Positions 40,612 to 43,936 of a stretch of DNA of 64,000 bases are shown here, piece after piece; within the stretch, counting starts at the first letter, position 1, and every line of letters starts with the position of its first letter. Source of the DNA: Guyparkeria hydrothermalis (GTDB taxonomy: Bacteria; Pseudomonadota; Gammaproteobacteria; Halothiobacillales; Halothiobacillaceae); NCBI RefSeq assembly GCF_023555385.1, contig NZ_JAJSED010000001.1, positions 310,001 to 374,000 of the forward strand. Direction: 5' to 3'. The notes under the pieces are model-generated. The model had not been told where the DNA came from. It was given only the letters and a program-made list of their open reading frames with translations, and made no database searches. A program made the translations under genes and the position numbers.

Positions 40612-41682
40612 ATGGCAATGAAAATATTGGTAACCGGTGGTGCCGGCTTTATCGGCTCGGCCGTCATACGTCATATCATCGCTAACACCACCGACGAGGT
40701 GGTGAACGTCGACAAGCTCACCTACGCGGGCAACCTCGAATCGCTGGCGTCGGTAGCCGGCGATCCCCGCTATCATTTCGAACAGGTGGACATTGTCGAT
40801 CGTGACGCGTTGGTACGGGTGTTCGCCGAGCACCAGCCCGACGCGGTCATGCACCTGGCCGCGGAAAGCCACGTCGACCGCTCCATTGACGGCCCGGCGG
40901 CTTTTATCGAGACCAACATCGTCGGCACTTACACCTTGCTCGAGGTGGCACGGGCCTACTGGAACGAGCTGGATCGCGCGGGCCGTGCCCGCTTTCGTTT
41001 CCACCACGTCTCCACGGACGAGGTCTACGGCGACTTGGAAGGGCCGGAAGGCCTGTTCCGGGAAGACACCGCCTACGCGCCGAGCTCGCCTTACTCGGCC
41101 AGCAAGGCCAGCTCCGACCACTTGGTGCGCGCGTGGCAGCGCACTTACGGCCTGCCGACGCTGGTGACCAACTGTTCAAACAACTACGGGCCGTACCACT
41201 TTCCGGAAAAGCTCATCCCGCTGATGATCCTCAATGCCCTGGAAGGCAAGCCGCTGCCGGTTTACGGCAAGGGCGAGCAGATACGTGACTGGCTCTACGT
41301 GGAAGACCACGCCCGCGCACTCCATAAGGTGATCACGGCGGGTGAAGTAGGGGAGACCTACAACATCGGTGGTCACAACGAGAAGCGAAATATCGACGTC
41401 GTTCAGAAGATCTGTGTGCTGATCGATGAGTTACGCCCCGACTCATCCACCTTCCGGCAGCCGGCTTCGAGCCTGATCACCTTCGTCGCCGACCGCCCCG
41501 GTCACGATCTTCGCTACGCCATTGATGCCGGCAAGATAGAGCGCGAGCTCGGCTGGCGCCCTGATGAAACCTTCGAGACCGGTATTCGCAAGACCGTGGC
41601 CTGGTATCTCGACAATCTCGACTGGTGCCGCCGTGTGCAGGACGGCAGCTACCAGCGCGAACGATTGGGAGTGAACGCATGA
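40612..41682 (+). CDS. rfbB: dTDP-glucose 4,6-dehydratase
   Basis: RfbB converts dTDP-glucose to dTDP-4-keto-6-deoxyglucose, the branch point for rhamnose and several amino sugars. The 356-residue SDR protein has [10 protein letters not shown] near residue 9, [12 protein letters not shown] near 83, the catalytic Thr-Asp-Glu in STDEVYGDL, Tyr-Lys in [11 protein letters not shown], and [15 protein letters not shown]. The stop overlaps rfbD by four bases. Its product may be shared between RfbC/RfbD and the aminotransferase at 44503. Confidence 0.97.
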
Positions 41683-42566
41683 AGACGCTGCTGTTTGGCG
41701 CGTCGGGACAGGTGGGGCGCGAGCTTTCTCGCACGTTGTTGCCCCATGGCCCGCTGGTCTCAAAGAACAGTGAAGCCGTGGATCTGGCACAACAAGGTTC
41801 GGTCACCGAATGTCTCGAGGCAGTGCGTCCCAAGGTCATCGTGAACGCTGCCGCCTACACAGCCGTTGACAAAGCCGAGTCGGACGAGGAACGGGCTCGG
41901 TCGATCAACGCGGCGGCCGTCCGTGAGATGGCCGAGTACGCAGCGCGAAACGATGCGCTGCTGATCCACTACTCGACCGACTACGTGTTCGACGGAGACA
42001 AGGACGGGGCGTACCTGCCCGACGACACACCGAATCCCGCGAGCGTCTACGGCCAAACCAAGCTGGAGGGAGAAGAGGCGATCCGGGAGAGCGGCTGCGA
42101 CCACCTAATCTTTCGAACCAGTTGGGTGTATTCCGCGAATGGGCACAACTTCATCAAGACCATGCTGCGCCTGGCCGAAGAGCGTGACGAGCTGAAGGTG
42201 GTGACCGACCAGATCGGCGCGCCAACCTCGGCGGAGCTGATCGCCGACGTCACCTCGCTCGCCCTGGCAGGCTACCGCCACGGTCATCTACCGGTCGGCA
42301 CCTACCACCTGACCGCCAACGGGGCGACTAGTTGGCACGGATTGGCATCCAGGGCTGTCGACCGGGCAATTGCCAACGGCCGTGAGCTCAGGCTGCGCGG
42401 CGGTGACATCCAGGCGATCGGCACGGCGGACTTCCCGACCCCGGCGACCCGGCCGGCGAACTCGCGCATGGACTCGAGCAGTCTTGAAGAGGCACTGTTG
42501 CTCGAGTTGCCCGACTGGACCATTCACGTCGACCGCATGGTGGACCAGGTGACGGGTAACAAGTGA
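41679..42566 (+). CDS. rfbD: dTDP-4-dehydrorhamnose reductase
   Basis: RfbD carries out the last step to dTDP-L-rhamnose. The 295 residues include the NADPH-binding [13 protein letters not shown] near 4-16, [12 protein letters not shown], the active-site [12 protein letters not shown] and the YGQTKLEGE motif. ATG 41679 overlaps rfbB by four bases. The last codons and the stop fall inside the left array of heptanucleotide repeats (from 42549), so the final residues VTGNK are repeat-encoded. Confidence 0.96.
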
Positions 42567-42619
42567 CAGGTGACAGAATGTTGCGTCACCCGTCACCCGT
42601 CACCCGTCACCCGTCACCC
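42549..42619. repeat. Heptanucleotide repeats arranged as an inverted repeat
   Basis: Four heptads of the form GTRACRR (GTGACGG, GTAACAA, GTGACAG, GTGACAG; 42549-42576) are followed by AATGTTGC and then five exact copies of GTCACCC (42585-42619). The second block is the reverse complement of the first type, so the whole can fold into a stem of about 27 bp with few mismatches. The left arm contains the rfbD stop codon. A related same-orientation array lies at 43034-43061, on the other side of a small gene. Confidence 0.92.
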
Positions 42620-42698
42620 ACAACGGGAGTCATCGCTCATGGAAGAGCAGGCCGGTATTATCCGTGGCCATCGTGACCTCGAGGCATGGTAAGTAGCC

Positions 42699-43025
42699 AT
42701 GCAGCTGGCACTCAACGTATATGAGGCAACCCGAGACTTTCCAGCTGAAGAGCGATTCGGCCTCGTGTCACAAATGCGCCGGGCCGCTGTCTCCATACCG
42801 TCCAACATTGCGGAGGGAGCGGGGCGGGATGGCCGAAAAGAGTTTGCACATTTTCTCGGTATGGCACGTGGCTCACTGAGCGAACTCGAGACACAGTGCA
42901 TGCTCGCTTATCGCTTGGGATTTCTGAGAGATCAGCAACTGGTCTCGGAACAAATTTCTCGCACGTTCCGCCTGATCGGCGGCCTGCAAAACAAACTACG
43001 AAACGACCAAAAACAGAAAGCATGA
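42699..43025 (+). CDS. Four-helix-bundle protein (23S intervening-sequence type), 5' end interrupted
   Basis: The 108-residue product matches the four helix bundle / 23S rRNA intervening-sequence protein family, with [19 protein letters not shown], the family's most conserved stretch, at about 25-43. The usual N-terminus, ending DLEAW-x-x-A-M, is encoded just upstream from ATG 42639, but codon 18 there is TAA (42690-42692), where the family has lysine or similar. Translation from 42639 therefore stops, and the ATG nine bases on (42699) could restart it. The family's role is unknown; members occur in rRNA inserts and, commonly, inside polysaccharide loci. It is bracketed by GTCACNN heptads and overlaps rfbA by four bases. 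Confidence 0.85.
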
Positions 43026-43936
43026 ATCAACCCGTCACTAGTCACTCGTCACCTGTCACCCGCAAAGGGATCATCCTCGCGGGCGGCTCCGGCACCCGGC
43101 TGCACCCGGCAACGCTGTCGGTCAGCAAGCAGCTGCTACCCGTTTACGACAAGCCGATGATCTACTACCCGCTCACCACGCTCATGCTGGCGGGCATTCG
43201 TGACATCCTCATCATCTCCACGCCGCAGGACACGCCGCGCTTCGAGCAACTGCTCGGAAGCGGCGAGCGGTGGGGGCTGAACCTGCAATATGCCGTTCAG
43301 CCCTCACCGGATGGCCTTGCGCAGGCCTTCGTCATCGGCGAGAACTTCATTGGCAACGATCCTTGCGCGCTCGTGCTGGGTGACAACATCTTCTACGGTC
43401 ATCACTTCGATGCATTGCTGGGCAATGCCACGACCCGCGAAGACGGCGCCTCGGTATTTGCCTACCACGTCCACGATCCGGAGCGCTACGGCGTGGCCGA
43501 GTTCGATGCGGACGGCAAGGTGCTCTCTCTCGAAGAGAAGCCTCAGGAGCCGAGGTCGAATTACGCGGTGACCGGGCTGTACTTCTACGACAACGACGTG
43601 GTCGAGATGGCCAAGGGCCTCAAGCCCTCCGCCCGAGGGGAGCTGGAGATCACCGACATTAATTGCCGCTACATGGAGGCCGGAAAGCTTAATGTCGAGA
43701 TCATGGGAAGGGGGTACGCTTGGCTCGATACCGGCACGCACGACTCGTTGCTCGACGCCAGCCAATTCATTGCCACGCTCGAGCAACGACAGGGCCTTAA
43801 GGTGGCTTGCCCGGAAGAGATCGCCTACCGCCGGGGCTGGATCACAGCCGGGCAATTGGAAGACTTGGCCCAGCCCCTGATGAAGAATGGCTACGGCCAA
43901 TATCTCACGCGCGTTCTCGAAGAGAGGGTCTTTTGA
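43022..43936 (+). CDS. rfbA: Glucose-1-phosphate thymidylyltransferase
   Basis: RfbA makes dTDP-glucose from dTTP and glucose 1-phosphate, the first step of the rhamnose pathway. The 304-residue product has [20 protein letters not shown] near residue 16, [25 protein letters not shown] and the C-terminal family part. Conserved family members start at about KGIILAGG. Here 13 extra residues ([13 protein letters not shown]) precede it, encoded by heptad repeats, and no start codon lies between ATG 43022 and the conserved core. The start overlaps the four-helix-bundle gene by four bases. Confidence 0.95.
43034..43061 (+). repeat. Four GTCACNN heptads inside the start of rfbA
   Basis: GTCACTA, GTCACTC, GTCACCT and GTCACCC follow one another without gaps at 43034-43061. 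They are in the same orientation as the five GTCACCC units at 42585-42619. They fall in the rfbA reading frame and encode part of its first residues. Confidence 0.9.

Follow-up and report, generated by a model that had tools for sequence, protein, structure and literature searches.

Genes of the S23 family, which encode small four-helix-bundle proteins, are recurrently bracketed by tandem arrays of short repeats, most often of seven bases, and we take gene and arrays together to be one element. The case described here in full lies in a 64,000-nucleotide stretch of Guyparkeria hydrothermalis DNA (contig NZ_JAJSED010000001.1, positions 310,001 to 374,000; hereafter the window), where an S23 gene flanked by heptads sits between rfbD and rfbA. 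Our reading, to which we assign a probability of roughly 0.55, is that an S23 gene and the inverted heptad arrays around it form a two-part element, organised as RAYT genes and REP sequences are, though without a transposase, and that the S23 protein recognises its own arrays. A more far-reaching version falls a little short of an even chance: each S23 subfamily would be sequence-specific for its own heptad in cis and in trans, the whole being a transposase-free, REPtron-like system which has the intervening sequence (IVS) of 23S rRNA as a special case and which explains the excess of heptanucleotides in bacteria (in Xanthomonas, possibly in Nostoc and Calothrix). The pairing points to a previously unrecognised two-part genetic system, and for the S23 family we share the judgement of the original prediction, made from the letters of the window, that here was a good candidate for an undescribed one. 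No general link between S23 and heptads was found in the open-access literature, most subscription papers and bioRxiv preprints lying outside the search.

Arrays were scored as tandem self-similarity at each lag in the 250 bp on either side of the gene and called at a score of at least 10. By this measure a 7- or 8-base tandem array was present at 168 of the 217 S23 loci in all sets together, which bears out the earlier suggestion that gene and heptads form a unit. The gammaproteobacterial set comprised 73 loci, four from an order-level search and 69 from a class-level search in which 79 of 370 genomes contained PF05635. Here lag 7 reached the threshold at 57 loci and its harmonic, lag 14, at 53, while each of lags 4–6, 8–13 and 15–20 did so at zero to three. 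A named-genome set of 80 loci from many phyla, gathered by a collection scan seeded with an alignment of eight proteins, gave lag 7 at 52 loci, lag 8 at 10 and either at 62; the repeat unit is not bound to 7 bases. Lag 7 or 8 was also found in 15 of 18 viral contigs, some of them near-identical (L193–L195 with L208; L196, L197 and L201; L206 and L207), at all 16 plasmid loci (those of 40 records analysed for flanks, 15 of the 16 being cyanobacterial) and at 18 of 30 Xanthomonadaceae loci, those among the listed places of that family whose flanks were analysed. The counts leave aside partial class-search places in G120, G228 and G316 and all those worse than E 1.2e-24; six lower-scoring places of that search were fetched, of which two had heptads (L247, L250) and four had none, two of the latter being Avd genes. 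We also noted octad arrays (L134, L139, L141, L145, L173), 9-mers (L126) and a 15-base period of 7+8 (L191), inverted across the gene by eye.

As controls, shuffled flanks reached the threshold at a mean of 0.2 of 73 loci, lag 7 was seen at 8 of 80 named-genome loci 1000 bp off the gene, and HepT genes of the same class had an array at one of 30 loci, that one adjoining an S23 gene. Polymerase slippage in neutral spacer, unrelated to S23, has been invoked for the heptamer excess of bacteria (Mrazek 2007, as cited in passages of PMC4679880 and PMC4692102), and a difference in array copy number among Coxiella strains, described in a portion of PMC4990558, would suit it. The HepT result speaks against slippage, as do the private, inverted and covarying arms and the match between subfamily and heptad described below; on the controls we reject it as very improbable.

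The heptad is private to each locus and usually inverted across the gene. At 121 of 164 loci the upstream flank matched the reverse-complemented downstream flank of the same locus better than the 95th percentile of pairs taken from different loci. The inverted match was better than the direct one in 121, and the direct better than the inverted in 34, including the window and a second genome of its genus (G003). Written in the upstream orientation the unit is G-rich and C-poor, with the consensus GTGA, purine, T and any base (2.64 bits versus at most 2.14 in a permuted null). Arrays hold a median of 4.6 units upstream and 4.4 downstream, with a mode of 4. Two solved relatives of the protein, 2gsc and 2rld, have five chains each; an array of five heptads, one per subunit of a pentamer, is unsupported by these medians and mode. 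Stop triplets are biased per position (0.104 in the upstream sense, 0.031 in the downstream sense), perhaps as a mere consequence of the GTGA consensus. With neighbours within 400 bp and crude open reading frame calls, the S23 gene was co-directional with both neighbours at 87 of 130 loci and opposed to both at 11.

Across 118 loci, protein identity and heptad similarity were weakly correlated (r 0.12). Agreement was high solely in the 12 pairs with more than 70% identity; outside close kin, then, heptads turn over faster than proteins. A shared insertion site allows the two arms to be compared directly. Fifteen gammaproteobacterial loci lie between rpsI and tRNA-Gln, as recognised by the C-terminal motif of S9 (confirmed as S9 in all four tested) and by tRNA-Gln in 15 of 15. 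The nearest match of each of their S23 proteins lies within these fifteen and not among the remaining 58 loci, yet their heptads differ, and both arms change together: the median score of own arms was 14.5 versus 7.0 for swapped arms (permutation p 5e-5, 15 loci). Further sites lie downstream of cysD (three loci), of leuC and of nuoC, in conjugation operons, and inside 23S rRNA at two loci (L062, L078; RF02541). O-antigen loci, in which the family had been said to be common, are therefore one class of site among several. S23 cassettes of cyanobacterial plasmids were, in addition, seen in CRISPR-cas operons (L231, L233, L237), twice between cas6 and cas4 and once with cas10 on one side and a gene of cmr3 type on the other.

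Purifying selection acts on the S23 protein, with ratios of nonsynonymous to synonymous substitution (dN/dS) of 0.06–0.30 in six close pairs with finite dS. This selection, and the long stay at rpsI–tRNA-Gln in 15 gammaproteobacteria with mutually closest S23s, would also be expected of an oligomeric post-transcriptional regulator, which autoregulates through its flanking heptads and finds in dispersed arrays its targets on other messages. The TRAP ring, which binds tandem triplets, offers a parallel. A hairpin stands some 20 bases ahead of the S23 start in the window, its inner block and leader identical at 53 of 54 bases in G003, and post-transcriptional regulation was proposed by MacGregor for TAACTGA repeats (in a section of PMC4679880). 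Such a regulator is harder to reconcile with sites and operons that are diverse and unrelated, with two flanks that covary, needlessly for autoregulation by a single array, and with a window genome free of dispersed triples. We consider it unlikely, if far from negligible.

In RNA folds the two flanks were joined by at least ten pairs at 122 of 147 loci with S23 and at 13 of 29 controls; the median number of pairs was 29 in the former and 7 in the latter. Transcript arms would thus usually pair round the reading frame, and RNase III could cut the cassette out, as it does with the 23S rRNA IVS; excision of this kind would explain harmless residence in operons and in rRNA. The flank pairing also suits a reading in which the RNA hairpin alone matters, as in that IVS, the protein being a passenger and dispersed heptads unrelated. 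The two loci inside 23S rRNA lend themselves to it, as do excision by RNase III in Coxiella, whose S23 was suggested not to be made (a portion of PMC4990558), and the window's gene, which carries a stop and yet has a conserved inner hairpin arm. A passive insert of this sort does not account for the low dN/dS values or for dispersed arrays matched to the subfamily, and we hold it improbable.

These dispersed arrays were counted as heptad triples in 119 Xanthomonadaceae genomes, of which 51 contain S23. At least 30 triples of GGGAWTN were present in 30 of the 51 S23-positive versus four of the 68 S23-negative genomes, and at least 100 in 23 versus none. Clades of S23 were taken from one average-linkage cut of matched protein stretches (single linkage at 55% identity lumps 60 genes). 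Of the 32 clade A genomes, 27 had at least 30 GGGAWTN triples, as had seven of the 87 others; among S23-positive genomes alone the figures were 27 of 32 and three of 19. Likewise, at least 20 triples of GGGACYC, a heptad found beside clade C genes, occurred in seven of nine clade C genomes versus four of 110 (S23-positive only, seven of nine versus three of 42). In each of the three genomes that contain clade A as well as clade C the two heptads occur together, with GGGAWTN/GGGACYC counts of 100/158 in G417, 195/25 in G433 and 21/64 in G505. By chance the backwards control of GGGACYC matched a single genome, G424 (69 matches), and the S23 gene of that genome carries AGGGCTY heptads similar to the control pattern. 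The link of clade A with GGGAWTN was first noticed in a 20-genome subset and then counted in all 119, whereas GGGACYC, and GAGTTCT below, were picked from S23 flanks before counting; the cut-offs, 30 and 20, were chosen once the counts were known.

A third heptad extends the correspondence beyond this family. GAGTTCT triples were found in three of 370 gammaproteobacterial genomes (G145, G351 and, as the complement, G133), and two adjacent GAGTTCT units in exactly three of the 73 fetched S23 loci, those of the same three genomes. Their S23s, from three bacterial families, are one another's two closest matches in the set of 73 (48–62% identity). All four GAGTTCT matches in G145 lie in the S23 flank; G351 has 33 and G133 44, and those listed are located either on a different contig or at over 15 kb from the S23 gene in question. 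Sampled dispersed arrays were often gene-less inverted pairs round a short spacer, 13 of the 20 having been chosen as such pairs. At their edges GCC was seen ahead of the first heptad (L339, L343, L350, L351, L354) and GGCT past the last (L335, L336, L340, L345), which looks like a short shared cap beyond the heptads. In one 2.3-Mb Xanthomonadaceae genome (G425) GGGAWTN triples are absent, although five S23 genes, divergent from one another, are present.

Gene-less inverted arrays raise the question of active copying. S23 could itself confer mobility, or assist a reverse transcriptase or nuclease of the host in the manner of Avd, and copy both the cassette and its gene-less derivatives. Its presence on plasmids, on viral contigs and at many sites accords with this, as do an empty rfbD–rfbA junction in a same-genus genome (G004) and a weak but real match to the Avd profile phrog_3206 (E 4.8e-8). 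In the 14 multi-copy genomes compared, however, near-identical S23 copies were absent, the copies being 17–48% identical, with different heptads by eye where the arrays are clear; no enzyme recurred beside S23 at 15 annotated plasmid loci, the single junction compared showed no target duplication, and two true Avd genes lacked heptads. We hold active copying by S23 improbable. The two Avd genes belong to a 1.5-Mb genome (G309; L245, L246) with ten near-identical weak matches to PF05635, of which the L245 copy is an Avd gene (PF22296); apparently some ten copies of a diversity-generating retroelement are present. A reverse transcriptase beside the L245 Avd gene is suspected by eye only; the next frame has no family match, and no YxDD-type motif was found.

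Several observations weigh against a two-part element whose protein recognises its own arrays. Firstly, 49 of the 217 S23 loci had no 7- or 8-base array at threshold; homologues without phased heptads were what the original prediction had named as telling against it, and several of the 49 have imperfect arrays by eye. At the rpsI site a locus's own arm ranked first in just seven of 15 rows. The wide divergence between copies in multi-copy genomes means that no recent gene copying is seen, and the suggestion that Coxiella does not make its S23 bears on this reading as well. Secondly, the window departs from the pattern in two respects: no pairs form between the two flanks of its S23 gene in the fold, and no dispersed exact triples occur elsewhere in its genome (2.39 Mb searched). 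Thirdly, the correspondence between clade and dispersed heptad is imperfect. Of the 34 clade A genes, no more than 10 are themselves flanked within 300 bp by two GGGAWTN units. Seven S23-negative genomes (G400, G407, G423, G431, G438, G491, G500) hold at least 20 triples (24–80) of one of the two heptads, possibly as relics after gene loss or through a missed gene; at least 30 GGGAWTN triples are present in G412, G419 and G473, which are S23-positive but lack clade A, and three of 29 clade-A-only genomes hold at least 20 of GGGACYC. Five clade A genomes fall below 30 GGGAWTN triples and two clade C genomes below 20 GGGACYC triples. Among seven sampled arrays without a listed opposite-strand partner, an inverted partner was present in the printed stretch for two (L348, L352). 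All these counts treat related genomes without regard to kinship, and the thresholds are post hoc.

The features of the window are collected in Table 1.

Table 1. The S23 cassette and its neighbouring genes (positions are those of the window)
Feature	Positions	Strand	Basis and remarks
rfbD/rmlD, dTDP-4-dehydrorhamnose reductase	41679-42566	+	TIGR01214, 322.5 bits, cut-off 224
Outer array, four GTRACRR (GTGACGG GTAACAA GTGACAG GTGACAG)	42549-42576	+	Direct reading, Tandem Repeats Finder (TRF); polarity is the family's usual upstream GTGANNN
Spacer between outer and inner arrays, apical part of hairpin	42577-42584	+	Fold; the G003 orthologue agrees at 10/10 bases over 42575-42584
Inner array, five perfect GTCACCC, pairing with the outer array	42585-42619	+	Sequence, TRF, fold
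S23 four-helix-bundle gene (PF05635, TIGR02436), 129 codons including stop, from ATG 42639	42639-43025	+	Profile match; TAA inside
108-codon open remainder, from internal ATG	42699-43025	+	PF05635, 109.8 bits
rfbA/rmlA, glucose-1-phosphate thymidylyltransferase	43022-43936	+	TIGR01207, 522 bits on 43064-43933; start predicted from sequence
Downstream array, four GTCACNN (GTCACTA GTCACTC GTCACCT GTCACCC)	43034-43061	+	In frame with RfbA if its start is 43022

The heptads are those that had been predicted on either side of the gene, and can be read directly. They are also peculiar to the cassette: at a minimum score of 30 the TRF table of the window lists these three arrays alone at period 7, all seven matches in the window to GTCACNNGTCACNNGTCAC with at most two mismatches lie at the cassette (0.21 expected; none of 100 shuffles reached seven), and exact heptad triples in the whole 2.39-Mb genome gave five overlapping matches, at the cassette only, and none with the backwards control. 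The left-hand arrays fold into a hairpin of -45.3 kcal/mol (z -5.2). The only Rfam matches to it were microRNA precursor families far under their cut-offs, and thus denote generic hairpins. The window is an exception to the usual pairing, its outer and inner arrays pairing with one another upstream of the gene. The usual layout has one inverted array per side, and the additional GTCACCC block inside it is a variation peculiar to this locus.

Membership of the S23 family is clear (109.8 bits versus a PF05635 cut-off of 33.8; also 111.1 versus 24), PF05635 is the sole Pfam match of the gene at E<=0.001, and the genome contains one PF05635 gene. The open frame of 108 codons described earlier belongs to the family but is what remains, towards the 3' end, of a 129-codon gene interrupted in frame by TAA at 42690-42692 (codon 18); the profile match starts at position 1 only when the frame is opened at ATG 42639. 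Because the gene carries this stop, the copy is probably decaying or restarting at the internal ATG. As claimed, the repeats reach into the genes on both sides. The stop codon of RfbD (42564-42566) falls within an outer heptad; at the other end the S23 stop and the likely start of RfbA overlap in ATGA, and the right-hand heptads would then encode an N-terminal extension of RfbA.

Two genomes of the same genus place the cassette in context. An orthologous cassette (L007) occupies the same rfbD–rfbA junction in G003, its S23 frame free of the stop. Coding DNA is 85.5% identical in rfbD, 87.1% in S23 and 89.9% in rfbA, while over loop (10/10), inner heptads (35/35) and leader (18/19) 63 of 64 bases agree; a gap of 13 bases separates the two outer arrays, and in the downstream array 31 of 37 bases agree. 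The dN/dS of this S23 pair is 0.13, stop excluded. A second S23 copy of G003, with a split frame (L010/L011), was viewed by eye and lies outside the counts. In G004, where no PF05635 gene was found, the junction is short, normal and empty, in agreement with the view that the unit sits within a polysaccharide operon. Repeat-dependent insertion, which had been proposed from the same arrangement, was not borne out: comparison of the window with G004, the single junction compared, revealed no target duplication.

On the reading of a two-part element, an S23 oligomer, for which the five chains of both solved relatives speak, would recognise tandem heptads of its own kind, probably on an RNA or single-stranded DNA hairpin. 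Recognition would keep the bracketed gene and allow gene-less arrays of the same heptad to spread through some genomes, a spread for which help from S23, regulation or passive RNA processing are the main alternatives. If this is true, two old puzzles, the function of S23/IVP and the heptanucleotide excess of bacteria, would merge into the question of whether each subfamily binds its own heptad. The 'four helix bundle protein' family would gain a substrate, the origin of rRNA intervening sequences would prove broader, and small protein–repeat pairs with naturally different specificities would be open to study as a set.

Among known systems, Avd of diversity-generating retroelements shares distant homology with S23 through phrog_3206. 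The window itself was considered as such a retroelement and rejected; its S23 gene has rml genes as direct neighbours and its protein has no match to the Avd model NF033474 and a weak one to phrog_3206 (E 7.2e-8). The two Avd genes of G309 (PF22296) differ further in being without heptads.

The IVS of 23S rRNA in Salmonella, Leptospira and Coxiella has the same protein family, complementary ends and, in Coxiella, GACAGAT heptamers before the S23 gene, in an insert cut by RNase III (a portion of PMC4990558). Two of our loci lie within 23S rRNA. The window cassette sits instead in a protein operon, between rmlD and rmlA, and Rfam matches at E<=1 on 42400-43200 list no rRNA. Its frame is not enclosed by complementary ends of the IVS type, an upstream hairpin being found instead. 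Across the family, moreover, heptads vary by locus and follow the subfamily, and gene-less arrays are dispersed in some genomes.

Heptanucleotide simple repeats agree with the S23 arrays in unit length, in being mostly intergenic and, in Xanthomonas, in forming inverted pairs; the window too has tandem 7-base units beyond chance. The STRR sequences of Calothrix are repeats of the same kind. Sections of PMC4692102 describe GGGGA(C/T)T in Nostoc and GGGAATC in Xanthomonas, a genus whose plentiful heptamer arrays lack an explanation, and sections of PMC4679880 describe TAACTGA in Beggiatoaceae. The terms 's23', '23s' and 'four helix' occur zero times in the main texts of these two papers. What sets the repeats of the S23 element apart is that they go with the S23 subfamily.

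In organisation the element resembles RAYT genes, which are low-copy, are flanked by inverted short REP sequences and form REPtrons with them. A RAYT has a Y1 transposase and its REP is a palindrome; the S23 element has a tandem heptad array, and the window's gene has no Y1 tyrosine transposase match in Pfam at E<=0.001. Common to both are a low-copy gene, inverted short sequences on its two sides and, in some genomes, gene-less copies elsewhere that match the resident type. In the window's genome no exact triples lie outside the cassette; gene-less copies of this sort are found in Xanthomonadaceae, G133 and G351.

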